From Hydractinia symbiolongicarpus (taxonomy: Eukaryota; Cnidaria; Hydrozoa; Anthoathecata; Hydractiniidae): 64,000 nucleotides of DNA. The stretch is from assembly GCF_029227915.1 (NCBI RefSeq), contig NC_079883.1, positions 22,258,001 to 22,322,000 of the forward strand, written 5' to 3'. The notes under the pieces are model-generated. The model did no database searches. It was not told where the DNA came from and saw nothing but the letters and a program-made list of their open reading frames with translations. Numbering within the stretch: position 1 is the stretch's first letter; the number at the start of each line of letters is the position of its first letter. Shown piece by piece: positions 7,196 to 53,421 of the stretch. The position numbers and the translations under genes are program-made.

Positions 7196-8338
7196 ATGTT
7201 ATTTTCGTACTTCTTACTTGGTTCTATCAATATCGTTGCTTCTTTGAGTGGGATCAAATTCACAAGAGAGAAGGGTTTTTTTCGTTACAAGGGCCGTCTG
7301 TTATCGTATCGATTTACCAATTCTACGTTTGATGCCCGAAAATACAGTTACATACTTCAAGCTTGTCCCAGTGGGTTAAATGATTTTTACTGCAAATGCA
7401 AAGGTAAAGCTGGTTTCTGCGAAAATTTTAAGGCTTATAAAAATGAAACTTGTGACGTCACAGACAGAAATCACGTGTTATGTCCCATATACAGTTTCAG
7501 ATATGGAGAACCATATACATTACGACTAAAGGCTTCTGCTGATGGACAAAACGTAACATTTATTGAGTATAAACAGAGCTCGTACACAATTAACGGCGGT
7601 GCACAGAGGTGGATTTGTGACGGATTTTCACTAAATGTACGTCTTAGTATTCTTGAACTTGATTCCGGTTTTTCAATTCATTTCAGTTGGGCAGATAAAA
7701 TGCCAACAAAAGTTGTGGATGAGCAATCAGTTTCAATTAAATATAAAAAATCAAACGAAACTAATTTCTTTGAGACGTGCGGTCGATATATTTCAGGTGA
7801 TACTACTGAAGTTAAAAGTTGCTATCTTGAAATTAAAAACGAGTGTACTTATTATACAATATGTGCTGAGGTGAAAAACTCAGAGTGTGAAGAATATCAA
7901 AATGGTAGCTACATTGAAACACAAACTTGCAAGACCGTATTCTTTGGTAAAAACTGTGAAAAACAACAACACACTGATCGCATTACACACACTAATCCCA
8001 TTACACACACTGATCTTCTGCCAACTCTAAGAACAAAAATTGAGGATCAAAGCGCGGGAAAACTTAGCAAACTCGACATTGTTGCTATTGTTATGGGTGT
8101 TGTGTTTTTACTTGGTCTGATTCTAGCTGTTATTTTGTGGTTTAAGTGTAAAAACAGAGAAAGCGGAGATGAAAGTAATGCAGCAGTTATGAATGAAGAA
8201 GATTTATTCGATTTGACTGAAGAAATTAATGAGAGACATGAAAAGCATAAATTAAGAAATCCAGTCAGATATCATGATGTCACAGAAAGTAAAGAAGAAA
8301 CAGAAGAAGAACAATATATCAGTTTGAAACAGACATAA
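7196..8338 (+). CDS. Receptor paralog 1: type I membrane protein with ITAM-like tail, 380 aa
   Basis: An uninterrupted exon encodes a signal peptide (about 1-19), an ectodomain, a membrane span (about 293-316, IVAIVMGVVFLLGLILAVIL) and a 64-residue acidic tail. The N-terminal domain has the family hallmark of cysteine followed by Cys-Pro and a strand ending YTLRLK (86-112). The next domain is fibronectin III-like, with NECTYYTICAEVK (215-227) matching LNPCKLYTVCVETK of paralog 2. It lacks the last ectodomain unit and the C-x2-C-x-C signature of the other five, and has instead a Thr/His spacer with THTNPITHTD. Tail tyrosines form YHDV (359) and YISL (374) separated by 11 residues, close to an ITAM, with V in place of L/I at the first site. 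Several N-glycosylation sites are present. An AATAAA lies at 8589-8594. The function as a receptor is inferred. The family is not one I can name. Confidence 0.82.
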   Translation: MLFSYFLLGSINIVASLSGIKFTREKGFFRYKGRLLSYRFTNSTFDARKYSYILQACPSGLNDFYCKCKGKAGFCENFKAYKNETCDVTDRNHVLCPIYSFRYGEPYTLRLKASADGQNVTFIEYKQSSYTINGGAQRWICDGFSLNVRLSILELDSGFSIHFSWADKMPTKVVDEQSVSIKYKKSNETNFFETCGRYISGDTTEVKSCYLEIKNECTYYTICAEVKNSECEEYQNGSYIETQTCKTVFFGKNCEKQQHTDRITHTNPITHTDLLPTLRTKIEDQSAGKLSKLDIVAIVMGVVFLLGLILAVILWFKCKNRESGDESNAAVMNEEDLFDLTEEINERHEKHKLRNPVRYHDVTESKEETEEEQYISLKQT

Positions 8339-8361
8339 AATATTAGCATTCAAAATCCCAA

Positions 8362-8480
8362 CCTCGTTCCCAGATTGCACTTTAGTCGTGGAGACTAGGT
8401 TGGCCGTACAATATTTAAATGAAAAAAATGCGCCAGAGAGTGTCTTACACGTATATGTTAATCAACCTCGTTCCCGGGAC
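8362..8480 (+). repeat. Two copies of the dispersed CCTCGTTCCC repeat
   Basis: CCTCGTTCCCAG begins at 8362 and CCTCGTTCCCGGG near 8466, about 105 bases apart, just 3' of receptor paralog 1. They belong to a family of short repeats scattered in both orientations through the window. Confidence 0.7.
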
Positions 8481-8785
8481 ACTTTCCTTTTCAACAACGA
8501 CGCTTTTAGCCACAGTAGAAGGTGCTAGAATCGACCTTGTCCGTATTGGGATCTGTTCCAATATTCTTCAGTAAACCAATATTTAAACAATAAAACTCAA
8601 ATTTTTTTGGATGCTTTTTAACTAGATCAGGTTACGAAAAAAACTTCTCAAATTCTTTTTTTACCAATATAGCGAACTTCACCGCCTATCAAGAGATAGT
8701 TAAAAAAAAGAAAAAATATTTTAACTTTGTAAAATCAATTACCAACGCCTCACAACAACAAAAAATACAAAAAATATCACAATAA

Positions 8786-8830
8786 CAAATTAGTTAGTTT
8801 GTTTGTTTGTTTGTTTGTTTGTTTGTTTTT
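8786..8830. repeat. (GTTT)n microsatellite
   Basis: About eight tandem GTTT units followed by a T-rich tail, between the convergent 3' ends of receptor paralogs 1 and 2. Confidence 0.9.
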
Positions 8831-8867
8831 GTTTTTTTGTCTGTTTCATGATAAATGGTTAAAATGG

Positions 8868-9989
8868 CTACACTTTTGCTTCCTCTGATTCTTTTTTACT
8901 ATTAATGTCTTCAGTTTTCCAGCATTTCTTTTTTAAGTGATAAAAGATAAATAAAATCAGCAAAAGAAGTATAACACACAAAACAATAAACGAGATGTTC
9001 AGCGTATCTCTCTTTGCAGAAGTAAATTTGCCTGTTATAACAGTCTGGGTACAAAGTTGCGTGTTTTCACGACAGTTACAATCTTTACATGTTTTCAGGT
9101 AAAAAGAGAACCCCTTTGAACCTGTCTGAAAAATGTTAAAATTATTTTTATTCGTTTTTCCTTCTAATAAAACTATCCCATTCTTATCCTTTAGTCGATA
9201 TTCATAGGACGCATTTAAAATTTTTCCATTACGCCAAAATATGCTGACATGACCATTTCTTTGCATGCATTTTACATTATGCGGTTTTATGGCTTCGGAT
9301 GGCGATTCTGTAAGACCGTATGATTTGATATCAATACACTTCAAATCTTCTTTACAAAGATCAACTTTTGTTTCTACACAGACAGTATACAGTTTGCACG
9401 GGTTTAATTTTAACTGACACTCCCAATCAGTTTTTCCTCTTTGTAACGGCGCTCCATTCAAACAATGATCAACGGTAACAAATTCTTTCTGACCAATCTC
9501 TTTGTGCATAACCTTAGATCTTAATTTTGATTGGTTGATAACAAATGATGTCAAATTATACCGATATGTCAATTTCCGATTCTTTCTATTAATGTGCATG
9601 ACAGGACGGAAGGTTTCTATATCACAATGACATTTTTTCGGCATCATTTTAGGGCTTGTTATAAAACTTTCGCCTGTAGATCTTTTTCTTTTCAATCGAA
9701 TCAAATAATTGCTACCAAAAGTTTTTAATGGGCACCAGAATTTTTTCTCTCTCAAAAAACACTGAACAAAGCTTTTTGCAATAAATCGGGTGTAACACGT
9801 GTAATCTTGACAAAACTCCAGCGTGTGGTTAAAATCCATGTATGACTCATTTATATAGGTTCTGTTGCTGTTGTAAGCGATGAATTTTTCGCCATAGGTG
9901 TATATACACATAGGGTCATTTTTGTTTTTCTTTATACCACTTGAAAAATCTATTAATGTCAGGATCAGTATACACCAAGTCAGAACCAT
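8868..9989 (-). CDS. Receptor paralog 2: type I membrane protein with no tail tyrosine, 373 aa
   Basis: A single coding exon starts at the ATG at 9989, 20 bases after a strong splice acceptor (CTATCTTTTTCAG, ending at 10010). It encodes a signal peptide (1-18), an N-terminal cysteine domain (about 25-115, with CFLREKKFWCP), a first FnIII-like domain (about 118-215, KCHCDIETFRP to LNPCKLYTVCVETK) and a second (about 220-315) closed by CKDCNCRENTQLC, then a span at about 331-351 and a short basic/acidic tail of about 22 residues. The tail has no tyrosine beyond the membrane edge, so the ITAM/ITIM-like motif of its relatives is absent. Residues 175-210 are almost identical, at DNA level too, to paralog 3. 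Convergent with paralog 1, 530 bp between stops. It could be a decoy, or a chain that signals through a partner, which is inference. Confidence 0.82.
   Translation of the reverse strand: MVLTWCILILTLIDFSSGIKKNKNDPMCIYTYGEKFIAYNSNRTYINESYMDFNHTLEFCQDYTCYTRFIAKSFVQCFLREKKFWCPLKTFGSNYLIRLKRKRSTGESFITSPKMMPKKCHCDIETFRPVMHINRKNRKLTYRYNLTSFVINQSKLRSKVMHKEIGQKEFVTVDHCLNGAPLQRGKTDWECQLKLNPCKLYTVCVETKVDLCKEDLKCIDIKSYGLTESPSEAIKPHNVKCMQRNGHVSIFWRNGKILNASYEYRLKDKNGIVLLEGKTNKNNFNIFQTGSKGFSFYLKTCKDCNCRENTQLCTQTVITGKFTSAKRDTLNISFIVLCVILLLLILFIFYHLKKKCWKTEDINSKKESEEAKV
9361..9467 (-). other. Gene-conversion-like tract shared with 19751-19857
   Basis: These 107 bases match 19751-19857 with two mismatches by eye (about 98%). 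Flanking coding sequence of the two genes is only roughly 75% similar or less. The tract encodes HCLNGAPLQRGKTDWEC and the following LNPCK-x-YTVCVETK strand. Confidence 0.85.
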
Positions 9990-10008
9990 TATTCTGTTTG
10001 TTTATATT

Positions 10009-10022
10009 CCTGAAAAAGATAG
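10009..10022 (-). promoter_or_regulatory. 3' splice acceptor upstream of receptor paralog 2
   Basis: On the minus strand the sequence CTATCTTTTTCAG ends 20 bases before the ATG, a textbook polypyrimidine tract plus AG. It implies an upstream non-coding exon or a spliced-leader addition site. Confidence 0.7.
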
Positions 10023-11181
10023 AATATATTAAAAAACTGAGCTTATTGCGAAAAAGGTGATGGTTAGGTGTGTCGTAGACGGTTTACGTCGTGCTGCAGT
10101 GAGAGAGTTCTAACTTTTGATAGCGCTTTCGTTTTTTCTTAAGAATATTAAGATTATTTAGACATGTCTGGTAAATCGTATAGCTACTAGTTTTTAGCCT
10201 GTTAGATAATCTAACGGAACGTCTGGCTAACTTTCCGCCGGCCTGAATAGGGTTCATAAGGTCCATATTTTCAAGAAATGATAAAGAGAACTTATATACA
10301 TAAAAACACGATGTGAATAATGCAACTGTTTGGATGGCAAAAAAAAGGGTTAGTGCCGCTTTAAAATTCTGCAGAAGCGCATCTCACCACCGCATACAAA
10401 CATAGTCTCTCTTCTATTCGCTGTATATATGTGTGGTTAATATTAACAAATACAGAAAATCCTCAAATTCCTTGCGCCATACTCTACAGATAGATAAACA
10501 GTGAAATAAAATAGATGCGGATAAAGTTTAAGGTTCCCTAAGTTGTCCGATCATACCATGACCCTTAAGAACACTTTAAATCAGAGTTTTATGACAACAT
10601 TAAGACGTCATTTGGACAAACCAGTTTCAATTTTAGTTTAATATTACATGAAATATGAACGTTCTTATTTGGGGTAGTGCATGTTAGCTTGGCGATGTTC
10701 GTAACCACAGTTGAGAAAATAAAAAATAGAACGTAGATACGTATAGAGACAAGTCATAAAACCTGTAAATAATGTTAACAACTTTGTTTCCAGGGCGAAT
10801 TGCCTGTCACCACCGATACGCTGCTGGATATATAAAAAGAATCCAACCTCGCCTGCAGGCCAATCGGTCCTAGGATGTAATGTCTTATGTTTTCAATACC
10901 TTTTAATTTTGTTTTGAAAGATACTCTCCTGACATCTTCCGACACAAATCCAATCAAAAATGCATCACCAAATACAACGACCCCTCTTTGAAATTAACCA
11001 GTCACTATTATAAATACATCGTCAGCAAATGGCCTCGTGTTATTAGTAAGAAGTCATTATGTCGTTAGTGCAACGTCGACATGTCGTAGCTATGACGTCA
11101 TTCTATTTTGGTGGTGTTTGTTTAACTTCGAAATATTAATAGCATATATTATGTTTATTTTTTATTGTTTTGTAATCCAGC

Positions 11182-11255
11182 ACCCTCGTTCCCAGATTGT
11201 TTCCTTTCTGACTACAGTTATACCAAAAGGCAAAAACCCTGAAAACGAGGGTGGC
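11182..11255. repeat. Short hairpin element, CCTCGTTCCCAG family
   Basis: CACCCTCGTT at the left pairs with AACGAGGGTG at the right around a roughly 55-base middle. A similar hairpin arrangement is seen at 14964-15035 (CACCCTCGTC with GGAGGGTGGC). Confidence 0.65.
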
Positions 11256-13130: not shown

Positions 13131-13165
13131 AAATAAATAAATAAATAAATAAATAATAAATAAGA
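13131..13165. repeat. (AAAT)n microsatellite
   Basis: Tandem AAAT units with one irregular copy, within a gene-free AT-rich spacer. Confidence 0.85.
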
Positions 13166-19122: not shown

Positions 19123-20394
19123 TTACTGTTGTGATTCGATCGGTATAATCTTATTGTACACTTCCTCCTCATTGTCATCATAAACATCGGCGTACGACAC
19201 CACAGGTTTTACATAGCGAACCTCGTCCATTATAACGTTTTCATCTACGACGCCATTCGACACTGTCACCGTGTATTCGTCATTTTTGACCTGTTTATGC
19301 CGAAAATGTCGATAGATGTACACCATAGACAACAGAACCACAATAAATGCTATTGGCGCGACACTCACAACTAAAATTATCGACTTTTTACGCTCAATTG
19401 AATCTTTCTGTTCACCTATTTTGATTGGTTCACATATTGCCGTAACCGGCGCACTACAATAACAGTCCTGACAACTTTTGATGGCAAGGTGAACCGGTCT
19501 TCGAATTGAGTTAGTCAACTTTATAGTTTCATTCGACATGGTACCATTATATAAAACCGCATCAGTTCTTATCATTTCAGACACTTCGACATAATAAGTT
19601 ATATTTTTGTGAGCGCCTTTTATCAGAGAAACAAACAGATTATAATCTTCCGTGCTACATCTCGTAATATTTGGTCTTATGGCTTCGGTTATCAACTCTG
19701 TGGGACCATGTGACTTAATATCAAAACATCTTAAATCTCTTTCACAAGAATCAACTTTTGTTTCCACACAGACAGTATACTGTTTGCACGGGTTTAATTT
19801 TAACTGACACTCCCAATCAGTTTTTCCTCTTTGTAACGGCGCTCCATTCAAACAATGTGTGACAGTTAAAAAAGATGTTGTATTTTGACCAATCTCCTTG
19901 TATAAAATTCTGGACTTCAATTTTAATTGGTTAACGACAAATTTTTTTAAATTATAACGATAAGACAACTTTCGAGTTTCTTGATTAAAGTGAATTTCTG
20001 GTCTGACCGATTTTATATCGCACGAACAATTACTTGGTAGAAATGTCGGCTTGGTGGTAAAATTATAAGAACTATTTCCTCCTTTCAATCGTATTATATA
20101 TACATTGCCAAAAACCGGGACAGGACAATGTAACTTTCTATCAACAAAACGGCAACGCGTGTGTCTATATACTTTGAAATGTTTCATACTTAAACAAGTA
20201 TGTCCTTTGCATAACTGCAAGGAATAGTTGAGAATTGAAAATGGAAATGTAACGTTCGATTTGATGGCATAATTAACGATTTTGCCTTCAGATGACAGCG
20301 AACATTCAGGTTGGCGTATCTCTCCGTACTGTGCTGAAGTGCTTTGAACAAAGAAAATATCAACTAATATGGTCAACAGTGTTAAAATAAGCAT
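19123..20394 (-). CDS. Receptor paralog 3: type I membrane protein with tyrosine-rich tail, 423 aa
   Basis: A single coding exon starts at the ATG at 20394. A splice acceptor (TTATCTTTTAG) lies 34 bases upstream. It encodes a signal peptide (1-21), an N-terminal domain (about 30-115, CRFVDRKLHCPVPVFG then YIIRLK), an FnIII-like domain (about 122-217, NCSCDIKSVRPEIHF to LNPCKQYTVCVETK), a second one (about 225-325) ending CQDCYCSAPVTAIC, a span (about 338-361) and a 60-residue tail. Tail tyrosines are Y374, Y394, Y401, Y405 and Y413. VSYADV (399-404) fits the ITIM consensus, and YADV-x8-YNKI also has ITAM spacing. EVYNKI matches the [IV]-Y-[EDN]-x-I motif of paralogs 4-6. Closest to paralog 2, with which it shares a 107-bp near-identical tract. 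A role as a phosphotyrosine-signalling receptor is inferred from the tail. Confidence 0.85.
   Translation of the reverse strand: MLILTLLTILVDIFFVQSTSAQYGEIRQPECSLSSEGKIVNYAIKSNVTFPFSILNYSLQLCKGHTCLSMKHFKVYRHTRCRFVDRKLHCPVPVFGNVYIIRLKGGNSSYNFTTKPTFLPSNCSCDIKSVRPEIHFNQETRKLSYRYNLKKFVVNQLKLKSRILYKEIGQNTTSFLTVTHCLNGAPLQRGKTDWECQLKLNPCKQYTVCVETKVDSCERDLRCFDIKSHGPTELITEAIRPNITRCSTEDYNLFVSLIKGAHKNITYYVEVSEMIRTDAVLYNGTMSNETIKLTNSIRRPVHLAIKSCQDCYCSAPVTAICEPIKIGEQKDSIERKKSIILVVSVAPIAFIVVLLSMVYIYRHFRHKQVKNDEYTVTVSNGVVDENVIMDEVRYVKPVVSYADVYDDNEEEVYNKIIPIESQQ
19751..19857 (-). other. Gene-conversion-like tract shared with 9361-9467
   Basis: Partner of the tract in paralog 2. The two mismatches are at TTTCCAC versus TTTCTAC and TACTGT versus TACAGT. 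Similarity falls sharply at both borders. Confidence 0.85.
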
Positions 20395-22297: not shown

Positions 22298-23494
22298 TTA
22301 GCTTATACTAGTAAAACTCGATTGCTCATGTGTGATATTAGCCAATGGTACATTGCAAATCTCATCATATATGTGTTCGCCAACATATTGTGCATTTGAT
22401 ACTACTTTTTCAGGTTGATTTCTTGGCCTGATAACCACATTTTCCCTTTTTTTATTCCTCCAATTACAACAAACAATGATAGCAACCAAGATAATAAAAC
22501 AGGCAACTCCTGTCACAGCATATAAAATCCACCACAAGTAAAGACTTCTTTCTTCAAAATAGGTACAAACCATTGTTGCATTTGCGCACTGGCACTGGTT
22601 ACATGTTGAAACTTTAACAAATACATTTTTAATGGATTTAGCCATACCCTTAACATCGACTGTTGAACCTGTTACATTGCCACTTCTTGCACGCACATTG
22701 TTAACAAAAACTGAATAGGTGGCCTGAAAATCTAATGCCACGCTGTTTAAAACTTTAAACATTAAGTCGCCTTTATTAGAATACATGCATTTATATATTT
22801 TGGGTCGCCTTGGTAACAGTAGTAAAAAGGTGTATTTTATAGATTGCTCACTATATTCTTGTCTCAATTTACACATTTTGCTGTCAATTTTTGTTTGCAC
22901 AACGTAAGTGGAGCACACTTGCAGGTTCTTGAGAAAGAAGCGTAATGATTTACTATCCTGTTGCCACACTTGTGTGAATGAATGCAATGTAGTATTGTCT
23001 AATCCATACGTACCATTTAAATCAACTTTCTCAAAATCTTTAGGATCTTCTGGAGTCACCGTTAGCATGGCTGAATTTCTATCATGCCTGGCTACTTTCA
23101 TTTTCCATTTGAAATTATAACCACAAAAACATTTTTTAGAACTAAAATTCTCCTTTCTTCCAAGAAAATCGTTAGTCTTATTCTTTATAACAAGTCGACC
23201 AGGCCTAGTTTGGCCATCAAGGTTTAATGTACACTTGATTAAAGACTTGGTGCTGTTTACAGAGCAATGATATTCTTCCATATCATCCTTTTTCCATTGA
23301 TCAAATCTACAATATTTATTACTATATTTTGCATTACACAACTGTATTGTGTAATTAAACACACTGCAATTGATGGTTTTGTTTAGATGGAAATATTGGT
23401 CCACCTGAAATTTTGAAGACTCGCAGTAGGAATCAATGATGACAGCCATAAAGACATACGGTAATAGCACCAATATAAACAAGCACAGCCGCAT
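22298..23494 (-). CDS. Receptor paralog 4: type I membrane protein with IYDEI tail motif, 398 aa
   Basis: The start is the ATG at 23494 (MRLCLFILV). An upstream in-frame GTG is not a likely eukaryotic start. A signal peptide (about 1-21) is followed by an N-terminal domain with paired cysteines (about 24-115), an FnIII-like domain (about 121-205, KCFCGYNFKWKM to LQVCSTYVVQTK) and a second (about 210-315) ending CNQCQCANATMVC, a span at about 320-343 (YAVTGVACFIILVAIIVCC) and a 53-residue tail. The tail has Y370 and Y376 in AQYVGEHIYDEI. IYDEI is close to the pYEEI sequence favoured by Src-family SH2 domains. The primary sequence is far from paralogs 2 and 3, but cysteine spacing and tail motif are shared. 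Single exon. Ligand and function unknown. Confidence 0.82.
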   Translation of the reverse strand: MRLCLFILVLLPYVFMAVIIDSYCESSKFQVDQYFHLNKTINCSVFNYTIQLCNAKYSNKYCRFDQWKKDDMEEYHCSVNSTKSLIKCTLNLDGQTRPGRLVIKNKTNDFLGRKENFSSKKCFCGYNFKWKMKVARHDRNSAMLTVTPEDPKDFEKVDLNGTYGLDNTTLHSFTQVWQQDSKSLRFFLKNLQVCSTYVVQTKIDSKMCKLRQEYSEQSIKYTFLLLLPRRPKIYKCMYSNKGDLMFKVLNSVALDFQATYSVFVNNVRARSGNVTGSTVDVKGMAKSIKNVFVKVSTCNQCQCANATMVCTYFEERSLYLWWILYAVTGVACFIILVAIIVCCNWRNKKRENVVIRPRNQPEKVVSNAQYVGEHIYDEICNVPLANITHEQSSFTSIS

Positions 23495-23962
23495 GGACAC
23501 TTTCTTTTAGTGGCCATCAAAAGCACTGAGTTTTACAAATTTGTTCGGTAGGGTAGTATCCATAACAAAACAGCAATATGACATCTAATATGGCATCTAC
23601 TAAAATGACATTCTAAAAAAAATAGTTTTCAGTATTAGTTATTGGTTACTTACTCTCCTACGGAAGACTAATTACTAGCGCAGCTTATTTACCCTCAAAA
23701 AATAAAGAAACCCTTTGGGGAGCTGGAGATCATGCATTACCTTAATATTGCAATTTTCTCTACATTTTTTTGAAGAAAGCAAGAAAACTTAAATAGCAGT
23801 TGTTTAGTACTTGTTTGTTCGACACACACAAATTTTAACTAAAAAGATGACACTTATTACCCCTTCAGTCTGTTCAGTTATTGTCATTAAATATATAATA
23901 ATTATCATGTCATGAACAAGTGAGTCTAGGAACAAGCAGGTTTATTCTATAGGCTACTTTAC

Positions 23963-27944: not shown

Positions 27945-29102
27945 TTAAAGATTTATACTTTGTTTTACATCAGCAGGTATCATGTATGGATTAATAGTTT
28001 CATATATATTTACATTTGCATCATCATGTGATTTAGGTCGCGGTCGAACCCTCTCATTTGCATGCTTCAGTTTCTTCTTTAAATACATGTATTTCAGTTT
28101 AAAACTTGTAATGATAACAATGAACAAAGACGCTACTGCTATAAGGATACCTGTTAAAATATCATATGGAAAGTTTTTTCTTTCAATAATCTCACTTGTT
28201 TGATTTTTCTTTAATTTTAAGCACTTTACTGTTGTTTTAGTTCCACATTGACAGACGGAGCATTGCTTCACTTGTATCAAAACATCCTTTTCTGTGTCTA
28301 CTGATAAATTGAAAACATTATTGAAGGTTTCTCCACTCCACAAAACAGTGCTATTATTATTAGCATCCAGAGCAATGTATTTAAAAAAATATGCATTTGT
28401 CTTACTACCATTCACAAGTATGTATTTCTCATGGTGAACACACTTTATTACAGGAGTATTAGGCTGTCTAGATAATGGTAATTTATGACATTCACTTAAA
28501 CCACTACAAACTTGAGCTTTAACTACATGTATGCAGAAGGAGTAACTCTTACAGGGATCTAAATTAGCTGCATAACATAAAACGCTGGGGCTGCATTTCT
28601 GATCTAGTGATACCAACTTTGTCTGATTGTCAGCATGGCTTGTTAATCGCACTGAAAATTTATACTGATGACTTTTCTTAAATTGGACCTTGAGAACATT
28701 TGCTGTGTTTGTCCATGTGTACTCAGGTAGATATTTATTATGACATTTACACTGTGGACTGATACTAAAAGGTTTAAACTCTGAGTATACGATTTGAGTA
28801 CTATTTTGTATTATCAACCTTGTTCGAATGCTTTGCACCACAACCATAAGACTTAATGGACATTTGACGCATTTTTCATCCATTTGTGAACAAGTTGTTT
28901 TAACTGGTTTGTCACATAACTTTTTAGCATTACGTTGGTATTTACATCTCTGCAACGAGAAACTAGTATTTTCATTTATGTTCAGTGAGTCAGTACAATA
29001 CACCAAATACACTTTTCGACTTCCCCGCAAACAGTGTGTTCGATGAAACACATTTTGGACTGGTACAAGTATTGCCAGAATGAGAAAAACTCTGAAATAC
29101 AT
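27945..29102 (-). CDS. Receptor paralog 5: type I membrane protein with IYETI tail motif, 385 aa
   Basis: A single coding exon starts at the ATG at 29102. A splice acceptor (TTATTATTTTTTAG) ends 5 bases upstream. It encodes a signal peptide (about 1-18), an N-terminal domain with many cysteines (about 24-115, CSQMDEKCVKCPLS), an FnIII-like domain (about 118-200, QCKCHNKYLPEYTW to LDPCKSYSFCIHVV), a second (about 205-296) ending CSVCQCGTKTTVKC, a span at about 315-335 and a 50-residue basic tail. Tail tyrosines include Y367 in NIYETI and Y373, plus juxtamembrane KYMYL. The motif matches those of paralogs 3, 4 and 6. The cysteine layout places it firmly in the family despite low overall identity. 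Confidence 0.82.
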   Translation of the reverse strand: MYFRVFLILAILVPVQNVFHRTHCLRGSRKVYLVYCTDSLNINENTSFSLQRCKYQRNAKKLCDKPVKTTCSQMDEKCVKCPLSLMVVVQSIRTRLIIQNSTQIVYSEFKPFSISPQCKCHNKYLPEYTWTNTANVLKVQFKKSHQYKFSVRLTSHADNQTKLVSLDQKCSPSVLCYAANLDPCKSYSFCIHVVKAQVCSGLSECHKLPLSRQPNTPVIKCVHHEKYILVNGSKTNAYFFKYIALDANNNSTVLWSGETFNNVFNLSVDTEKDVLIQVKQCSVCQCGTKTTVKCLKLKKNQTSEIIERKNFPYDILTGILIAVASLFIVIITSFKLKYMYLKKKLKHANERVRPRPKSHDDANVNIYETINPYMIPADVKQSINL

Positions 29103-29812: not shown

Positions 29813-30736
29813 TCACAACGGTCCAGCGATTATTTGGGGAATTGGCACGATATCCTGATCTATTTCATCAATAAGATTCTTTTCAAAAATGTTGTCATCG
29901 AGGTCAACTGTTTTCTGCTTTAAGAAATAAAAACTTAATGCTTGAACTGTCCCCTGTACATTTTGACGCCACTGCCGTAATGCTCTTCCTACGAACATTG
30001 ATTTTCTTCGTCGTGGATCAATGTAAACTACTGCATAGTAAATCTCTTCGTTTTCGAAATACATTGCACTTGCCGAGGTCTGTAGTGAAGCCCAGGATTT
30101 GAATATGATATTATTCAGAGCATCTTCTACATCTTTAGGAGGCTCAATTTTGTTTCCTTCATCTTTTGCCATGCTGTCTTCGTCGTCGTCATCATCTTCT
30201 TCCAACTCACTCTCCTCTTCCTCTTCTTCAACCACCCTTTCCTTCCCTGAGTCAAATTTTCCATCAAATTCATTCTGATCTTCATCTTCCTGGTCATCAT
30301 CTTGGTCTTCTATATCTTTCTTTTGTCCTCTAATTTTCGCCCTACTTATTTTCTTCTCTTCTCCTTCCTTATTTTTAAGCAACTTTACTTTTTTTTTACT
30401 GTTTTTCTTTTCGCTTTCCTTGTTAATAATTTCTTGCAGAAGTTCTGCATCGCTAACTACAGTAGCAGCCAAGTTAATTTTGCGTCTTTTTTTCACACCA
30501 GGTTTTTCCATAGGCTTGATCTTGTTTAAGAAAAGCTCCTCCAAAGACTTATTTACTACTATTGGCGCAGTCGTTGGTGTTGGTGTTGATGACACTGGTT
30601 CAAGCTTCCAGCCGTTGGGTACCCACTGAAAACCTAATGGAGCATCAAAGGGGAACGGGCCAATAGTATCCATCACTTGTTTAGAAAAATGCTTAGGTGA
30701 TGAATGAATTTCTGTAGGAGTATTGTTGTTACACAT
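29813..30736 (-). CDS. Unrecognised acidic/basic low-complexity protein, about 307 aa
   Basis: The first ATG in frame is at 30736 (MCNNNTPTE). The frame is open upstream to about 30825, so an earlier exon could join there (AGTATAG is a possible acceptor). Residues of about 20-55 are proline-rich (GPFPFDAPLGFQWVPNGWKL). The middle is lysine-rich, then there is a long Asp/Glu run. The C-terminal 100 residues look folded, with ASAMYFENEEIYYAVVYIDP then KSMFVGRALRQWRQ. The composition suggests a nuclear protein. The C-terminal pattern seems vaguely like proteins carried by mobile elements in cnidarians, but I cannot name a family. No inverted repeats are evident around it, so it may be cellular. 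Confidence 0.6.
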   Translation of the reverse strand: MCNNNTPTEIHSSPKHFSKQVMDTIGPFPFDAPLGFQWVPNGWKLEPVSSTPTPTTAPIVVNKSLEELFLNKIKPMEKPGVKKRRKINLAATVVSDAELLQEIINKESEKKNSKKKVKLLKNKEGEEKKISRAKIRGQKKDIEDQDDDQEDEDQNEFDGKFDSGKERVVEEEEEESELEEDDDDDEDSMAKDEGNKIEPPKDVEDALNNIIFKSWASLQTSASAMYFENEEIYYAVVYIDPRRRKSMFVGRALRQWRQNVQGTVQALSFYFLKQKTVDLDDNIFEKNLIDEIDQDIVPIPQIIAGPL

Positions 30737-31343
30737 TTTCAACCCACTTGCTATAGGTGTCGATATTTTGGTTTCTGTTGATGTGTTATCTACAGCGAAC
30801 TCTACATTACTATCTGTCTATACTAAACTTTTCTGCCAAACCCTGTATTTCATTTGTATTAAAGATTGTGTAATCAGAAAGTTGAAGTATAATTTAGCCC
30901 ACAATGTTAGACATTTTAACAATCAAAAGTTTCGTAACTTTTGCAAAATAGACATCTTATTAACAAAATTAAATTTCCTTTTTTTGGACCAGATTACAAA
31001 AATAAAATGATTTTTGAGACTAAATTAATTCAACTTCATTCCTTGCTAAGGCACACTGGTGTATTTAAAGTACTAGAGTCTGAGAATAATTCGGGTGAGT
31101 TGTGATTAAACAAAAAGCAAACTAATGTCTGGTGTGAGTACACCATCATTAGATCATACACACATCATGTTCACGTCCTGAAATCTTTTTAAAAGTAAAT
31201 CCCTCAGTTATCTAGATTTTCCTCTGGCAGTTCCCTATGGGATAAAGTAAATTCATTTCCTATTAAGTATAGTCATGTAATAATGATCCTGTCTTTGCAG
31301 CCCTTGACCTTGATGTATTTTGTTCTGACACAGGGAAATGTCG

Positions 31344-35751: not shown

Positions 35752-36029
35752 TGTTGAAATGTAAACTTTATATATTTGCAGAGTTGCTTCGACTGCTCCA
35801 ATAACTTTATGACTCTATGACTCTAAAATTTACAAGACGTTCTCCTATTTATATATTAAAGATAAGATACTTTAGAATGTTCTAGTATATTCCAGATGTT
35901 CTATATTTACTATTAGTAGTTTCTAGTATAGTTATCTTATTTCTGGAATATTCTCCAATGTCCCTTATATTTCTAGATAGTACACAAGGTTCTAGAATGT
36001 TCTTGCGGCAAGAGTGCCTATTTTCAACA
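35752..36029 (-). repeat. 3' LTR of the copia element
   Basis: Identical by eye to 39065-39342. Ends TG...CA, with a short inverted terminal motif TGTTGAAA/TTTCAACA. Confidence 0.95.
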
Positions 36030-36039
36030 CTCCTCCTCA
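36030..36039 (-). promoter_or_regulatory. Polypurine tract of the copia element
   Basis: Read on the minus strand this is TGAGGAGGAG, touching the 3' LTR. The TGA is also the stop codon of the polyprotein, so coding region and plus-strand primer overlap. Confidence 0.8.
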
Positions 36040-38877
36040 CTCGCAGTCCGTAAGGTTCTTCAATCCGATCATCGTTCGCAACTTATCAAACTGTACTCGT
36101 CCGATTCCTTTCGTCATTATATCTGCGATCATATCTCCACTTTGACAGTACTTCAATTGGATTTGGTTTGATTTAACTTGCTCTCTTACGTAATGATATT
36201 TCATATCGATGTGTTTGGCTCGTCCGTGAAATTGAGGATTCTTTGTCATTGCGATGGCTGATTGATTATCTTCATTGATGATTGTTGCGTTTGGCTGCTT
36301 TTCTCCCATGTCTGCTAAAAGTCGTCGTAGCCAAATCGATTCCTGTGAGGCATTTGATAATGCAATATATTCGGCTTCTGCAGTTGACAAAGCTACACAT
36401 GTTTGTTTCTTTTTGTATACCCATTTGCTGCCAACAACTTTTCTGTTTGGAGGTAATTCAGTCAACTCCCATACTTCGTTTTTGTGTAGAGAATCCAATT
36501 CGGCTTCCATTGCTTGCATCCACTTGTCTGCATCATGTCCTTTGATTGCTTTAGAAAATGTATTTGGATCTTCTTCTTGAGTGATGTATACCCATTCTCC
36601 GTAACGATCAGGAGGCCGTCGTTCTCTTACTTGTCGCTCTTGCTCCTCCTGTATTTGATTATCTGTGTTTTCTTCACGAGGTTGTAATTCGATCTCTACT
36701 TTTGGTTCGTCTATGTCACGGTCGTCTTTCAATTCACCACAGATTTCATTGAATGTCACATTTCGGCTGTAAAAGACTCTCTTCTTGTCGTTGTCATATA
36801 AACGATATCCCTTGATTCCATCACCGTATCCAAGAAATACACTCTTCTTGGTTTTTGAATCAAGTTTCTTTCTTTCATCTTTTGGTACGTGAGCATACGC
36901 ATCACATCCGAAAATTCGTAGATTTTCGACATTTGGTTTCTTTCCAGTTAATACTTCAAAGGGTGTCTTCCCTTTAACTGCTGTCGTTGGACATCGGTTA
37001 CGAAGGTACGTTGCTGTAGCCAAGGCTTCGGCCCAAAATCGTTTTGGTAACTTTGAATCTGCTAACATTGATCTTACAGATTCCATGAGTGTTCTGTTCA
37101 TCCTCTCTGCAACTCCATTTTGTTGCGGTGTTTTCGGAATTGTCAACTCATGATGAATACCTTCTTTCTTCAAATAGTCTTCGAACTCTTTGGATGTATA
37201 TTCTCCACCATTGTCAGTTCTAAACGTTTTTATCTGAATTCCAGTCGATTTTTCCACAGTTGCTTTCCATTCTTTAAAATTCTCAAACACTTCACTTTTG
37301 TGTTTCATGACATATACCCATACGTATCTTGATTTATCGTCAATGAATGTAACAAAATATTCTGCACCACTAAGTGATTTTGTTTCTATCTTTCCACAAA
37401 CGTCGCTATGGATTATACCAAGGAGATTTTTCGATCGATCTCCTCCTGTCTTCGGAAACGGTATTTTGCTTTGTTTCCCATCAATGCACGGTTCACAAAA
37501 TGTCGGTTTCTTTGTTGCATCATAATCAAACCCTTTAACAAGTTTGTCCCTTGCCAATCGTTTAAGATTCTGCACACCGAGATGACCGTATCTTCTATGC
37601 CAAATTTCTTCCTTTGTTGTAGCGTTATTATCACATTTCATAACTGTGTGATTCTTCTTATTTCTCAATCCATTACAGTTGAGATGGTAAAGGTTGCCAT
37701 GCTTTGTTGCTGTACCAATGATTCCGTGTTTCGCATCCACGATGTCACATTTGAAATCTTCAAACTGAAACTTCTTTCCATTTGTTGCAGCTTTTGATAC
37801 ACTAAGTAAATTGTACGAAAGTTGTGGTACAAATAAGACATCAGATAACTTGCATACAACGTTTCTGTTTTCTGAAATGTTCATTTCCAAGGTTACTGTT
37901 CCTTTTCCAATTGCTTGTACTGAATATCCATCACCGACAGTGATATCTTGTGGTATTTCAAGTGACGAAATTTCTTCGAACAATTCCTCTTCGTTACACA
38001 TGTGACATGTTGCGCCTGAATCAACTATCCAGTTACTTTTTCCTTTGACTGCCAAAGTATTTTCAGCAACTAAACTGATGATTTCTTCGTCATCATCTTC
38101 TTCTTCTTCAGCCGTACACACATTTTGCGGCTTCATTCGATTTTTACCGTACGTCGAAGGAGTCTGTCTCTCGAACTTCTTCGTTAATTCTTTGCAATAT
38201 CGTTTCACATGACCAATCTTTCCACAGTGATAACATCTGGGTCCCTTTCTTGGCTTTCCATGATTCGATGTCATTGCTTTGACATTCGTTTCCAAAGTGT
38301 CCTTATATTTCCGCTTGCTTTCCTCGTGTAACAATCGTTCAGTTACGACTTCAAGCTTCGGTACTTCAGCACTAGCCTCCAGAGCTGTAACTAGCATATC
38401 ATACGAGTCTGGTAAGCTTGCTAACAAATGAACAACTTTACTTTCATCATCCAACGGGTCTCCAATAATTGCAAGTTCATCGAAAATTTCTGTCAAAGCT
38501 TTAACGTGCTTTTGAACAGATTGCTCATCTTTCAACTTCAAGTCATACAACTTCCTGCGTAGTGTCAATTTATTACTCCATGTCTTCTTTTGGAACTGGT
38601 CTGCCAACTTCTTCCAAACCTCAGTAGGATCTTCTGGATCTGGTCCAAGCAGGTATAACAGCGTTGGTTCCACCGACAAAACAATCGTTGCTAACGCACG
38701 ATCTCTACGCAAATTAAATTTCGGAATTTCTCTCTCTTCAGTTGGAGCATTTTCTCTTCCATCAACAATTCCCCAAAGTCCATCTTTGATTAACGCCATT
38801 CTACACTGTACCTTCCAGGTAGCATAGTTTGTTCCATTCAATGGTTTTATCAATACTTTGGTGCTTTCCATCGCCAT
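36037..38877 (-). CDS. Copia Gag-Pol polyprotein with internal deletion of the reverse transcriptase, 946 aa
   Basis: The start is the ATG at 38877. Residue numbers below count from a non-ATG codon five positions earlier, just after an upstream stop. The order is Gag (about 1-210), a zinc knuckle CYHCGKIGHVKRYC (220-233), an aspartic protease with DSGATCHM (291-298), a pre-integrase His/Cys motif (HRRYGHLGVQNLKRL ... CEPCIDGK), an integrase with HSDVCG, DNGGEYTSKEF and PQQNGVAERMNRTLM, and then the first residues of RT (AMEAELDSLHKNEVWEL ... VVGSKWVYKKK). There, near 36405, the frame jumps directly to the RNase H/C-terminal part (QTCVALSTAEAEYIAL ... IADIMTKG). Family members have several hundred residues of RT between these, including the YVDD active site, all absent here. 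The deletion is in frame, so a shortened polyprotein may still be made, but it cannot reverse-transcribe alone. Confidence 0.93.
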   Translation of the reverse strand: MAMESTKVLIKPLNGTNYATWKVQCRMALIKDGLWGIVDGRENAPTEEREIPKFNLRRDRALATIVLSVEPTLLYLLGPDPEDPTEVWKKLADQFQKKTWSNKLTLRRKLYDLKLKDEQSVQKHVKALTEIFDELAIIGDPLDDESKVVHLLASLPDSYDMLVTALEASAEVPKLEVVTERLLHEESKRKYKDTLETNVKAMTSNHGKPRKGPRCYHCGKIGHVKRYCKELTKKFERQTPSTYGKNRMKPQNVCTAEEEEDDDEEIISLVAENTLAVKGKSNWIVDSGATCHMCNEEELFEEISSLEIPQDITVGDGYSVQAIGKGTVTLEMNISENRNVVCKLSDVLFVPQLSYNLLSVSKAATNGKKFQFEDFKCDIVDAKHGIIGTATKHGNLYHLNCNGLRNKKNHTVMKCDNNATTKEEIWHRRYGHLGVQNLKRLARDKLVKGFDYDATKKPTFCEPCIDGKQSKIPFPKTGGDRSKNLLGIIHSDVCGKIETKSLSGAEYFVTFIDDKSRYVWVYVMKHKSEVFENFKEWKATVEKSTGIQIKTFRTDNGGEYTSKEFEDYLKKEGIHHELTIPKTPQQNGVAERMNRTLMESVRSMLADSKLPKRFWAEALATATYLRNRCPTTAVKGKTPFEVLTGKKPNVENLRIFGCDAYAHVPKDERKKLDSKTKKSVFLGYGDGIKGYRLYDNDKKRVFYSRNVTFNEICGELKDDRDIDEPKVEIELQPREENTDNQIQEEQERQVRERRPPDRYGEWVYITQEEDPNTFSKAIKGHDADKWMQAMEAELDSLHKNEVWELTELPPNRKVVGSKWVYKKKQTCVALSTAEAEYIALSNASQESIWLRRLLADMGEKQPNATIINEDNQSAIAMTKNPQFHGRAKHIDMKYHYVREQVKSNQIQLKYCQSGDMIADIMTKGIGRVQFDKLRTMIGLKNLTDCE

Positions 38878-39044
38878 TTGTTCCGTATTCAACTAATCCG
38901 GATAATCCGTTTCAGGTTTCCACAATACGATTTTTCGTGCGAACTTCACACCAATCCAAACCAAAATCAAAACAAACTCGTCGGACACACAAGATGGCTT
39001 CTTCTTCTTGAATATTATTTCTGTAAATATTCAATCTTCTTGGG

Positions 39045-39064
39045 CATAGACTGGGCCCATAACC
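39045..39064 (-). promoter_or_regulatory. Copia primer-binding site (initiator tRNA-Met half-molecule type)
   Basis: On the minus strand, directly after the 5' LTR, the sequence GGTTATGGGCCCAGTCTATG is complementary to the anticodon stem-loop of initiator tRNA-Met (CTGGGCCCATAACC on the plus strand), not to its 3' end. Drosophila copia is known to use such an internal site. Confidence 0.85.
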
Positions 39065-39342
39065 TGTTGAAATGTAAACTTTATATATTTGCAGAGTTGC
39101 TTCGACTGCTCCAATAACTTTATGACTCTATGACTCTAAAATTTACAAGACGTTCTCCTATTTATATATTAAAGATAAGATACTTTAGAATGTTCTAGTA
39201 TATTCCAGATGTTCTATATTTACTATTAGTAGTTTCTAGTATAGTTATCTTATTTCTGGAATATTCTCCAATGTCCCTTATATTTCTAGATAGTACACAA
39301 GGTTCTAGAATGTTCTTGCGGCAAGAGTGCCTATTTTCAACA
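39065..39342 (-). repeat. 5' LTR of the copia element
   Basis: Identical by eye to 35752-36029. It should hold the element promoter, reading towards lower coordinates. Confidence 0.95.
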
Positions 39343-44530: not shown

Positions 44531-44539
44531 AACATAACA

Positions 44540-45820: not shown

Positions 45821-45824
45821 GTAC

Positions 45825-47343: not shown

Positions 47344-47862
47344 CTACCGGCGAAGTTAAGCAAAAAATTAAATTGTTGACTCAGTCGAAAGGTATCTTGA
47401 AGTATATCGTTCAACGTGATGAAACTACTTGCTTCTTTGTGTGACAACCACTCTACGCATTGTTCGATCAATCTTAAAAAAGGGAAGTAAACAAAAGATT
47501 CGTTCGAAATTCGAAAGTTAGCTAGCAACCATGTAAAAAGAAAAAGCACAATGACTTCGTAAAAAATTTTTGTTTACTTTGCTTCGCTGTGATATTTCGA
47601 TATTTTCAATGTTTAAATATATATTCGCACTAATCCGCCTTGCGAATTCAAACGTGTTTATGACAGAAATGTAAATGTTTCGTAGCTAACATGTGAAACT
47701 TTTTGATATACTTGTAAAGTAATCTGTTGTATTTCTTTGGTTAGATAACTGAAAAAGGAAGGAATATATAAAAATGATGTACCCCGATGTTACAGCAGAT
47801 TGTGTACGCTCTAATGCATTTATTCTTTCTTCATCGCCAGCATCGTAACTTGGGTCGTCCAT
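47344..47862 (-). CDS. First two coding exons of an unrecognised gene
   Basis: Exon 1 (47862 to 47783) starts MDDPSYDAGDEERINALERT and ends after two bases of a codon at GGG then GTACAT. Exon 2 (47472 to 47344) follows an AG acceptor with a TTCCCTTTTTTTAAG tract, supplies the missing base, and reads LIEQCVEWLSHKEASSFITL, then NDILQDTFRLSQQFNFLLNF, before a donor (TAG then GTATCT). The phase agreement supports a real gene. The protein looks alpha-helical, possibly a small complex subunit, but I do not recognise it. Further exons may be at 45825-46077 and 42557-42749. Confidence 0.5.
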
Positions 47863-48064
47863 GTTTTTTACTTTTTGTAAAACAACAAGGAAATCATGTG
47901 GTGTTATGAGGTTCGAATAATTCAGAAGAAACAATAGACCCTGCCCCCCTTTACATCCCTTATAATAGGAAAACTTTATTTTAATGCAGAAATAAGAAAG
48001 TACGAATTCTGTTTCTCTTTCAATTCTAATTATTAAAAAAATCAAGGAAACAAATACACACAAA

Positions 48065-50850: not shown

Positions 50851-50856
50851 AGCATA

Positions 50857-50906
50857 CCGTAATGCTTCGAATAAACGCCCGGGGCGTTTATTAAATTTTT
50901 TGACAT

Positions 50907-50937
<31 letters not shown>

Positions 50938-51316
50938 CTTCTATTCGAGGGGAGCGTTCAAAAGAGGGGGGCGTTTATTAATTTTTTTACACTTCGTCTC
51001 TTTTGCAGTTTTTAAGGATATCTATAATATATATCTTCACAACAGAAAATAAAAGATACTCACATGTTTTAGAGAATGAACTTCAAAAGCGAAAAGCTAA
51101 GTCTCCAACCTTAAACCTAAGATTTAGGAAAAAAGTAATTTATTATCGCCTCGCATAAACTCCCCTTATGAGGGAGGGGCCTCTATTCGAGGGGGGCGTC
51201 TATTCGAGGGGGGCGCCTATTCGAGGGGGGCGTTTATTTAAAAAATGACTGAAAAGGAGGGGCGTCTATTCGAGGGGGCGTTTAATAGAAGGGGGTGTTT
51301 ATTCGAAGCATTACGG
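50857..51316. mobile_element. Tc1/mariner-type MITE with TA target duplication, 460 bp
   Basis: Both ends read CCGTAATGCTTCGAATAAAC (right end in reverse, with one or two changes) and both are flanked by TA. The inside has repeated CGAGGGGGGCGTYTATT units and a T-to-G homopolymer (about 21 G, near 50917-50937). Non-coding. It lies about 400 bases upstream of receptor paralog 6. Confidence 0.85.
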
Positions 51317-51696
51317 TAACAAGCTTTCTTCGAGGATAATAAAATGAGTTTCTTTTATACAAAAGCTTGAATGCAAACAATGTGTCAGAGCAAATCCTCA
51401 AAATTCATATCCACCGCATAGCAAACCCCGAATTACAATCAAGTATAAGCACAAAGCTAGCGTGGTCACATGTTACACTCTTTAATAATACAATAATTAA
51501 TTATATTTGTTTAGGTGAGTGAAGCCATTCTCGCTTAAAACAAAAGATTTTCCGATATTGACCACAAACGCGGTCAGAATTCTGACCTCAGAAAAATCGG
51601 TTAAGACCCAGCGTTATTTTTTCACCTTTAAATTCCGATTTCCTAGTGGTAGGTTTAGGTTCTTTTAAAAAACCTACACTGTCTCATGCTTCGTAT

Positions 51697-51709
51697 TCTT
51701 TGTTTTTAG
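51697..51709 (+). promoter_or_regulatory. 3' splice acceptor upstream of receptor paralog 6
   Basis: TATTCTTTGTTTTTAG ends 56 bases before the ATG at 51766, and no ATG lies between. This supports starting the protein at 51766 and not at an upstream in-frame ATG at 51646, which would lie in the intron or outron. Confidence 0.65.
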
Positions 51710-51765
51710 AATTGCCTTTGCATATCCATCAACACGTTTTACAAAGAGTTTTTATTCCTTACAAA

Positions 51766-53421
51766 ATGGCAGGACGATTTTATAATAGACTGCTATTACT
51801 GGTCGTTGTCTTGATAATAATATGTTTTTTTTACCAAGCTGAATGCAAAAGTGACACCTATTTTCACAGTTGTTTGAGAGGCATTGTTTTGATAGAATAC
51901 ATATATTTCAAACCATACGCAGAAAAAAATCAAACATTAACGTATACAGCCATTTTAAGCCACTCTTCGGAAACCAAGAAATTTAAATGTACTGTTTCAA
52001 AATCAGACAAGCTGGTCAAGTGTGACATCAGAGGTTTTGAACCTCAATTCACCTTTAAATACATCGTCCAACAAGGAAACTTAGTAAAATATGAAGAAAA
52101 AGGTAGCATAATGCTTTCAACAAAATGTAACTGTGAATTGGATTGGATGAAATATACACGCTGGGAACAGACTTTACAACCTGAGCATAATAAAGCAAAA
52201 TTCATTTTCAAAACCTTACTTTACAGCCGAAACCAAGTCATTATGCATTACCATAAAAAACAAGAAAATAATTGGCACTTAAACTTAAACTGGAAATTTA
52301 AAAATGGTGGCATAACGGTCACACTAGACAAACTTGATGTATGTGCGACTTATGAGTTAAAAGCAACTTTGTTACCGAGAAGATGTTTGAAAAGACAAAT
52401 AACGACTTTAAACTTTACGTTGAGAGAAAGTTACAAAACACCTGTGCTTAACATCCATCAATGTTTTCTTACTGGCAGTACATTGAAGTTCAAAATCAAT
52501 ATACCAGACAGTGGGAATGTTGTCGTAAAACATATGTATAGAATTAAAAATAAGAACTGGGTTACTGTTAATAAAAAGGGTTCGTTTAATAAAACAACAT
52601 TTTACTTGAATGCTACAGGTGATGTTTTCATAGAAACATCCAGTTGCATCGCTTGCAAATGCGCCAACAAAGTTTATAAATGTGTCACAGCAGCACGGGT
52701 TTTAGCTGACAAAACAGAAAAGAAAAGAGAGAAAAAAACCTATTTAATTAGAGTTTCTGTAACAGGTATCGCTTCGGGTATTGGTATTTTTGTCATTATG
52801 GCAATTGCATACATTCAAAGTAGGAGAAGAAGAAGAATTAGTCAATTGGATATGGATCCAGCAGATATAATTAACCCTATCAACCAGCAAAGAGTTTTCC
52901 CAGAAGACAATATATACGAACGCATATACGATTCAACAAACACAGGTAGAACTACAGTGGAAATCGCTCCAGAATTACCAGAACGTAACCTTGCTAATTT
53001 TTGTAGAAGTCGTGAGAATTCGCAGTTATCAGATCATTATGTATATGCTGGTAGTTTTGAGGAGAATAATGAAGAGGAAAACTCAGTGAAAACACAGAAG
53101 CAAATAGATAATCCATTTAGGACACTGAAACAAAAACCTGATTTAGAAAACGCGGGACAATATTCTAGGGATGCAGAAATTGACGACACTTTTGAGACTT
53201 TGAAACAAAATTCCGATATGGGTGACGTAGAACAATATTGTGGAAATGCAAAAATTGATGATAGAGTTGAGACATTAAAACAAAACTCTGGTATGGAAAA
53301 CGTAGAACAATTTCGCGGGAATATAGAAACTGACAATGCTGTTGAGGCATTGAAACAGAACTCTGGTATGGAAAACGTAGAAACCGATAATGTTGATGAG
53401 GACATTGAAACAACACTTTGA
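51766..53421 (+). CDS. Receptor paralog 6: type I membrane protein with long repeat tail, 551 aa
   Basis: The ATG at 51766 is chosen because a strong signal peptide (MAGRFYNRLLLLVVVLIIIC) follows and a splice acceptor precedes it. An N-terminal domain (about 30-118, KCTVSKSDKLVKCDI) is followed by an FnIII-like domain (about 121-205, KCNCELDWMKY to LDVCATYELKA) and a second (about 222-306) ending CIACKCANKVYKC, and a span at about 327-350. The tail of about 200 residues is much longer than in the relatives. It has IYERIYD (383-389), HYVYAGS (424-430) and then three full and one partial 25-residue repeats with core ETLKQNSxMENVEQ. The tyrosine motif matches paralogs 3-5. AATAAA lies at 53472-53477. 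Signalling through phosphotyrosine is inferred. The function of the repeat is unknown. Confidence 0.85.
   Translation: MAGRFYNRLLLLVVVLIIICFFYQAECKSDTYFHSCLRGIVLIEYIYFKPYAEKNQTLTYTAILSHSSETKKFKCTVSKSDKLVKCDIRGFEPQFTFKYIVQQGNLVKYEEKGSIMLSTKCNCELDWMKYTRWEQTLQPEHNKAKFIFKTLLYSRNQVIMHYHKKQENNWHLNLNWKFKNGGITVTLDKLDVCATYELKATLLPRRCLKRQITTLNFTLRESYKTPVLNIHQCFLTGSTLKFKINIPDSGNVVVKHMYRIKNKNWVTVNKKGSFNKTTFYLNATGDVFIETSSCIACKCANKVYKCVTAARVLADKTEKKREKKTYLIRVSVTGIASGIGIFVIMAIAYIQSRRRRRISQLDMDPADIINPINQQRVFPEDNIYERIYDSTNTGRTTVEIAPELPERNLANFCRSRENSQLSDHYVYAGSFEENNEEENSVKTQKQIDNPFRTLKQKPDLENAGQYSRDAEIDDTFETLKQNSDMGDVEQYCGNAKIDDRVETLKQNSGMENVEQFRGNIETDNAVEALKQNSGMENVETDNVDEDIETTL
53104..53382 (+). repeat. 75-bp coding tandem repeat in the tail of receptor paralog 6
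   Basis: Three 25-codon units and one 18-codon unit, with core TLKQNSxMENVEQ. The units stay in frame. Later units are more alike than the first, indicating recent expansion. Confidence 0.85.

Follow-up and report, generated by a model that had tools for sequence, protein, structure and literature searches.

A cluster of six paralogous single-exon receptors with predicted fibronectin-III-like ectodomains in Hydractinia symbiolongicarpus

Colonial and solitary invertebrates need to discriminate self from non-self without antibodies, and to our knowledge few invertebrate receptor families of this kind are known, the one in Hydractinia being Ig-based. The genes of that family, Alr, are multi-exon. 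A class I cytokine receptor carries CX(9-10)CXW...C...C in the first fibronectin-III (FnIII) domain of its binding module and WSXWS in the second. As described in the excerpts of two reports (PMC3276163, PMC11067881), the Hydractinia Alr receptors are clustered and single-span, have low mutual identity, exchange sequence between loci and bear immunoregulatory-like tail motifs. An excerpt of a third (PMC12026705) places CRLF3, which has a WSXWS FnIII domain, already in cnidarians and states that the complete cytokine pathway assembled within Bilateria. Here, we describe a receptor cluster in Hydractinia symbiolongicarpus that recalls both systems.

A family of six intron-free genes

Six neighbouring intron-free genes in the 64,000-nucleotide stretch of DNA analysed (the window) form one paralogous receptor family, as a preliminary description had proposed. 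Their features are as follows.

7196..8338, forward strand: receptor 7196, 380 aa; signal peptide, domain 1 (D1), domain 2 (D2), short repeat stalk and span; 60-aa tail with YHDV...EEEQYISL; lacks domain 3 (D3) and C-x2-C-x-C
8868..9989, reverse strand: receptor 8868, 373 aa; three domains (by alignment), C-x2-C-x-C and span; 21-aa tail without tyrosine except one at the membrane border
19123..20394, reverse strand: receptor 19123, 423 aa; three domains (modelled), C-x2-C-x-C and span; 59-aa tail with VSYADV...EEEVYNKI
22298..23494, reverse strand: receptor 22298 (P0003), 398 aa; three domains (modelled), C-x2-C-x-C and span; 52-aa tail with HIYDEI
27945..29102, reverse strand: receptor 27945, 385 aa; three domains (by alignment), C-x2-C-x-C and span; 46-aa tail with NIYETI
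51766..53421, forward strand: receptor 51766, 551 aa; three domains (by alignment), C-x2-C-x-C and span; 199-aa tail with NIYERI and 25-aa repeats

All six open reading frames (ORFs) are intact and uninterrupted at the positions first assigned to them; the start codon of 22298 is the ATG at 23494 rather than the GTG at 23500, and that of 51766 is the ATG at 51766 (551 aa). When a profile of five ectodomains was searched against the 2077 ORFs of the window, the omitted gene was the top untrained match in every case (6/6), and blastp tied 22298 and 51766 to the other receptors weakly. Hydropathy revealed an N-terminal hydrophobic segment and a single later span in all six, so that a predicted signal peptide and one membrane span, expected of an FnIII-domain cell-surface receptor and previously described as common to the cluster, are present throughout by this measure. 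A fragment at 6136-6318 reached E values of 0.02-0.2 in five of the six leave-one-out searches; as a candidate family member it was set aside as a chance match, with ∼40 residues aligned and no cysteine or motif support. Rfam gave no match, and scanning 8300-8900 for bacterial promoters was uninformative.

A set of 5.8 billion proteins yielded six distinct proteins, two of them the window's own and four close homologues (P0001, P0004, P0005 and P0006, of 19123, 22298, 27945 and 7196, respectively), and no more distant relative by a search that requires shared 5-residue words. The family may possibly be lineage-restricted, a provisional description because of that requirement and of the uncertain animal coverage of the protein set. 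Phage records queried with 51766 gave no match, and among the literature matches listed no title or abstract start described such a family.

Ectodomain signatures and predicted folds

The N-terminal signature, previously given as C...CP, holds as a C-x(8-10)-C pair in 6/6 receptors, but CP itself occurs at this pair in four, with CT in 22298 and CD in 51766. Likewise, the strand written as (L/N)xxCxxY stands as the C-x2-Y of domain 2 in all six, but the residue three before its cysteine is L in five receptors and K in 7196. The C-x2-C-x-C just outside the membrane was recovered in five, as stated, 7196 being the receptor without it. The count of one or two FnIII-like domains is too low for both structural models, which contain three beta-sandwich domains; in 7196, alignment indicates two domains followed by a short stalk of repeats. 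The corresponding features are these.

20029..20331, reverse strand: domain 1 of 19123, predicted beta-sandwich, with the C-x8-C pair
19681..20037, reverse strand: domain 2 of 19123, predicted FnIII-like, with L-x2-C-x2-Y
19387..19689, reverse strand: domain 3 of 19123, predicted FnIII-like, membrane-proximal, with C-x2-C-x-C
7969..8015, forward strand: 18-bp tandem repeat, 2.6 copies, in the juxtamembrane stalk of 7196

AlphaFold2 models were obtained for two of the six proteins, 19123 and 22298 (pLDDT 63 and 61; pTM 0.41 and 0.34). Both show a signal peptide, the three sandwiches, a single membrane span and a disordered tail, and their folds agree in element order, as the grouping into one family implied. 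The Foldseek matches listed for both were mostly tandem FnIII chains, with low query-normalised TM-scores (0.17-0.33 among the matches listed); CD45 was the first row among those listed for 19123. Matches in a viral structure library were a mixture of FnIII, Ig-like and phage-tail proteins (query TM-scores ≤0.30) and were uninformative. Consistent with the earlier view that no characterised family takes all six, the structure matches of the two models gave no single one. These data point with modest confidence to an FnIII-type beta-sandwich architecture in these two proteins, the class of domain 1 being its least tested part.

Profile searches agreed that no named family could be assigned. Nine whole proteins (the six receptors and three other ORFs) and ten domain pieces were compared with Pfam, and for the receptors and their pieces no family reached its curated cut-off. 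The lowest E values were 0.0022 for TMEM132_C, on the span of 22298, and 0.0087 for Pacifastin_I, on a 16-residue cysteine run in D3 of 22298; fn3 itself was unmatched, and the nearest entry was fn3_SORL1 (E 0.1, D2 of 27945). A D2 profile matched Tie2 (E 6.6e-4), its sole sequence-profile match and a weak one for each single repeat (i-E 2.2 or worse), and showed no similarity to D1 or D3. The D1 profile had no match; matches of the D3 profile (unrelated proteins, E 0.18 or worse) and of five-member and ten-member profiles (confined to the span region, E 0.16 or worse) were discarded. Queried with 19123 as a single sequence, PDB gave no sequence match. Pfam detected neither a phosphatase nor a kinase domain in the six receptors, nor any SEFIR domain (E up to 1), and five tails are ≤60 aa; IL-17 receptor identity, which calls for an intracellular SEFIR domain, was rejected.

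We then weighed two families against these results. Derived Alr members whose Ig-type domains were lost or diverged past recognition would share the plan of clustered, single-span receptors with low mutual identity, together with immunoregulatory-like tail motifs and loci that donate sequence to one another, all features noted in the excerpted Alr reports (PMC3276163, PMC11067881), but the fold matches of two models are mostly FnIII and Pfam gave no V-set or I-set match for receptors or domain pieces. The absence of an Ig V-set among the matches of the six, as first described, extended to 80 further window ORFs (Pfam, E up to 0.01). The six genes are also single-exon here, against the multi-exon Alr genes. 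Published Alr domains reportedly (Huene 2022) lack many standard Ig motifs, and Pfam may miss Alr-type domains for that reason. We regard Alr descent as improbable.

A lineage-specific expansion of cytokine-receptor-type receptors, in which D2-D3 would bind a secreted helical cytokine and a tail-bound kinase would signal, appears unlikely to us. In the model of 22298, D2 and D3 are arranged in a manner resembling class I cytokine receptors, and cytokine-receptor entries make up 44 of the best 50 matches listed for these domains, but such entries account for 13 of the best 50 listed for the other modelled paralogue, 19123, which does not favour them. The ectodomain motif CX(9-10)CXW, tested as CX(8-12)CXW, and WSXWS, in strict or relaxed pattern, each occurred in 0/10 distinct sequences.

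A gene-conversion-like tract in domain 2, and tail types

Receptors 8868 and 19123 appear to have exchanged DNA recently, sharing a gene-conversion-like tract. This tract and a repeat in the 51766 tail are located as follows.

9278..9482, reverse strand: gene-conversion-like tract in domain 2 of 8868, 84% nucleotide identity to 19668-19872
19668..19872, reverse strand: partner tract in domain 2 of 19123, containing a 76-nt run identical to 8868
53121..53382, forward strand: 75-bp tandem repeat, 3.5 copies, coding 25-aa repeats of the 51766 tail

Among the ectodomains, that of 19123 comes closest to the one of 8868 (39% overall identity), and the likeness of the two is confined to part of domain 2. 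Inside the tract, synonymous difference drops from ∼0.7 to 0.06 and a 76-nt run is identical (0 of 5000 permutations). Domain 1 of the pair is 13-47% identical per 15-residue block, which weakens the idea of a shared ligand.

The tails had been described as short, which fits five receptors (21-60 aa by the boundaries of this analysis) but not 51766 (199 aa). They fall into three types, two of which bear tyrosines: a tandem YxDV...EEExYxx(I/L) in 7196 and 19123, and a single (N/H)IY(E/D)xI in 22298, 27945 and 51766; the third is that of 8868. Tail YxxPhi motifs numbered 7 vs 3.6 in shuffles, a marginal enrichment (p 0.051). The strict ITAM, Yxx(L/I)-x(6-12)-Yxx(L/I), was present in 0/10 distinct sequences, and identity as ITAM receptors was rejected on that basis; when V is tolerated, the motif appears in 7196 and 19123 and in their respective homologues, P0006 and P0001, in each case in the tail. 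Compared with the close homologues, tails differ at 5/217 positions and ectodomains at 84/1136, so that tails change more slowly, at ∼1/3 of the rate. Spans differ as much as ectodomains (11/121), and the contrast is thus one of slow tails rather than of proven fast binding surfaces.

Ordinary glycoproteins under relaxed constraint, serving adhesion, egg-sperm or tissue-specific functions, could also diverge in this way, since divergence and gene conversion are routine in tandem duplicates and would carry no recognition meaning. Gene conversion is common among tandem paralogues according to the excerpted text of PMC3276163, and the tail-motif enrichment is marginal; however, six intact ORFs, the retention of key cysteines and tail motifs, and the slow change of the tails make this account rather unlikely.

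Proposed role and comparison with known systems

Our best explanation, held tentatively and a little short of an even chance, is that these are clustered single-exon type I FnIII recognition receptors, possibly paired, that signal via tail tyrosines. The recognition role, ligand binding, tail phosphorylation and pairing are what we infer from the features above; neighbouring, fast-changing genes with recent exchange between two members form a pattern also known from recognition receptors. The ectodomain would consist of cysteine-rich FnIII-like sandwiches, three in five genes and two in 7196, with domains 2-3 as the putative module that binds a protein ligand, whether displayed by another cell, secreted or foreign. 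Once engaged by ligand, the receptors would cluster; their tails would be phosphorylated by tyrosine kinases and would recruit SH2 proteins. Receptor 8868 may act as a decoy or non-signalling partner because its tail lacks tyrosine beyond the membrane border and its span core is uncharged. In 8868 and 19123, gene conversion may preserve the similarity of part of the binding region but leave the tails distinct, a pattern known from paired immune receptors.

A bolder version, which we consider decidedly unlikely, is a second, non-Ig clustered recognition family in a cnidarian-type animal, built from cytokine-receptor-like FnIII modules with C-x2-C-x-C near the WSXWS place and partly paired via gene conversion. 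If true, Alr would have a second recognition system alongside it, surface binding modules of the cytokine-receptor-like type would exist beyond Bilateria, and the six genes would bear on when such modules arose. With no named homologue and with ectodomain sequence exchanged between members, this clustered FnIII family offers a small, concrete set of candidate genes.

Among described systems, the class I helical cytokine receptors (for example IL-11 receptor alpha, the common gamma chain, EpoR and LepR) are likewise single-span type I proteins with tandem FnIII-like domains, whereas the six receptors carry C-x2-C-x-C instead of the class I CX(9-10)CXW and WSXWS. The ectodomains of CD45 and Tie2 are also tandem FnIII; unlike them, the six have no phosphatase or kinase domain and end in tails of 21-199 aa. 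The descriptions of Alr, whose ectodomains are Ig, V-set plus I-set, in the excerpt of PMC11067881, set that family apart from these single-exon, FnIII-like receptors. Siglec-11 and Siglec-16, as excerpted from PMC5701461, are Ig-type lectins with extremely similar extracellular regions and reported opposite signalling, whereas the ectodomains of 8868 and 19123 are 39% identical, their exchange covers part of one domain and their pairing is proposed here; in both cases, two receptors have exchanged an ectodomain stretch and bear different tails.

Gene structure and predicted fold of the six receptors

To describe the six receptor genes, which are named by their window coordinates (7196, 8868, 19123, 22298, 27945 and 51766), we recovered the open reading frames and compared their predicted products. 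All six (6/6) were found as uninterrupted frames, single-exon as the preliminary description had read them at the level of coding frames, and each product contained an N-terminal hydrophobic segment and one later membrane span. The start of 22298 was the ATG at 23494, and 51766 started at its own ATG, though its open frame continues upstream.

The agreement of folds across the family was checked with AlphaFold2 models of 2 of the 6 proteins, 19123 (pLDDT 63, pTM 0.41) and 22298 (pLDDT 61, pTM 0.34). The order of elements was identical in both: a signal peptide, three beta-sandwich domains (D1, D2 and D3, from the N terminus to the membrane), a membrane helix and a disordered tail. Receptor 7196, as judged by alignment, is without the third domain; its short stalk contains an 18-bp tandem repeat.

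Beta-sandwich domains in the AlphaFold2 models
19123: residues ~30-113, 133-226 and 243-321
22298: residues ~30-117, 130-224 and 232-310

Foldseek searches with the two models returned tandem FnIII chains as most matches. Among the matches listed, TM-scores were low (0.17-0.33 by query length), which is expected because the angles between domains are uncertain. The D2 profile matched the three-repeat FnIII chain of Tie2 at E 6.6e-4, with each single repeat weak. Sequence searches with the D1 and D3 profiles gave no credible match, and profile comparisons of D2 with D1 and with D3 revealed no similarity.

The D2 tract, rates of change and cytoplasmic tails

We compared 8868 and 19123 along their length and found a stretch of D2 that stood apart from the rest.

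9278..9482 (-): tract in 8868
19668..19872 (-): partner tract in 19123

Across these 205 bp the two genes were 84% identical, whereas identity in 15-codon blocks beyond the tract was 29-64%, except for a block next to it (76%). The synonymous difference was 0.06 at the tract centre compared with roughly 0.4-0.9 in outside windows, and the longest identical run was 76 nt against a permutation maximum of 32 (n=5000, codon columns permuted). The matching synonymous sites are not explained by protein constraint alone. The tract may be an assembly artefact; taken as gene conversion, it is a fairly firm and new piece of evidence, one that fits a recognition role. The identical residue run of 8868 was longer with P0001, one of four close homologues of the receptors (38 residues), than with the window's own 19123 (25 residues), a hint of variation during the exchange or later.

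Residues differing between the receptors and these four homologues (P0001, P0004, P0005 and P0006) were counted by region, over aligned residues only. Differences were found at 84/1136 residues of the ectodomain domains versus 5/217 of the tails (Fisher p 0.004, with residues treated as independent). Outside the Fisher test were the spans (11/121), juxtamembrane segments (5/36) and signal peptides (2/59), as well as gapped positions. What can most safely be said is that the tails are kept steady.

The tails of 7196 and 19123 have in common a tandem tyrosine arrangement ending EEE-x-Y-x-x-(L/I), and those of 22298, 27945 and 51766 have in common (N/H)IY(E/D)xI. The 21-residue tail of 8868 contains no tyrosine; there is one at its border with the membrane. 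Tail type matched ectodomain group in all receptors but 8868. The total of YxxPhi motifs in the tails was marginally higher than in shuffles (p 0.051), and a search of the receptors for a strict ITAM found none. The case for tail motifs, as read from these sequences, rests on shared forms and not on enrichment.

Mobile elements and other features around the cluster

2846-2895, 5534-5587 and 5630-5675: related GTTCGAGATA-type 16-bp tandem repeats, recurring near the transposon
3126-3944 (-): DDE_1 transposase piece (Pfam)
4411-4902 (+): short open reading frame, probably the source of a HIRAN-domain match (E 4.9e-4)
~4938-5594 (-): open reading frame near the DDE_1 piece
29813-30742 (-): open reading frame of 309 aa with many acidic residues and lysines; the Pfam search gave no significant match for it
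35752-39342: Copia-type retrotransposon inside the receptor cluster
51176-51306: 17-bp tandem repeats directly upstream of receptor 51766
54813-55598 (-): piece of an HbrB-like (PRR5/Protor-type) gene (Pfam E 2.2e-9)

The 278-bp ends of the Copia-type element were 100% identical and flanked by an apparent 5-bp target duplication, and most of the reverse transcriptase seems to be missing from its open reading frame, given what we take to be the domain order. The insertion is therefore very recent and probably non-autonomous. The DDE_1 piece and the frame at ~4938-5594, to which a Tc5/CENP-B DNA-binding match is probably assigned, constitute a pogo/Tigger-like element. The HbrB-like piece is a possible conserved anchor for synteny.

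Relation to known recognition systems

Taken together, the six genes form a real and coherent family of receptors. The family has no name, its general kind is recognisable, and we infer for it a role in recognition. The sequences are best read as those of a small family of recognition receptors, two of which may form a pair. In such a family the ectodomains would bind ligand and the tails would be phosphorylated; 8868 and 19123 would be paired receptors with related ectodomains and different tails, and conversion would keep part of their putative binding domain alike.

The model for this pair logic is the vertebrate Siglec-11/Siglec-16 pair, whose extracellular regions are described as extremely similar (PMC5701461). 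Like these receptors, 8868 and 19123 have related ectodomains, an apparently exchanged stretch and unlike tails. Unlike the extremely similar Siglec pair, they are 39% identical overall, and for this reason we put their pairing forward as a hypothesis. The Alr genes, the Ig-type allorecognition family of Hydractinia symbiolongicarpus, are placed on chromosome 3 in PMC11876637. Judged from descriptions of Alr, the domain type detected in the six receptors differs from that of the Alr system, whereas in style the two are similar.
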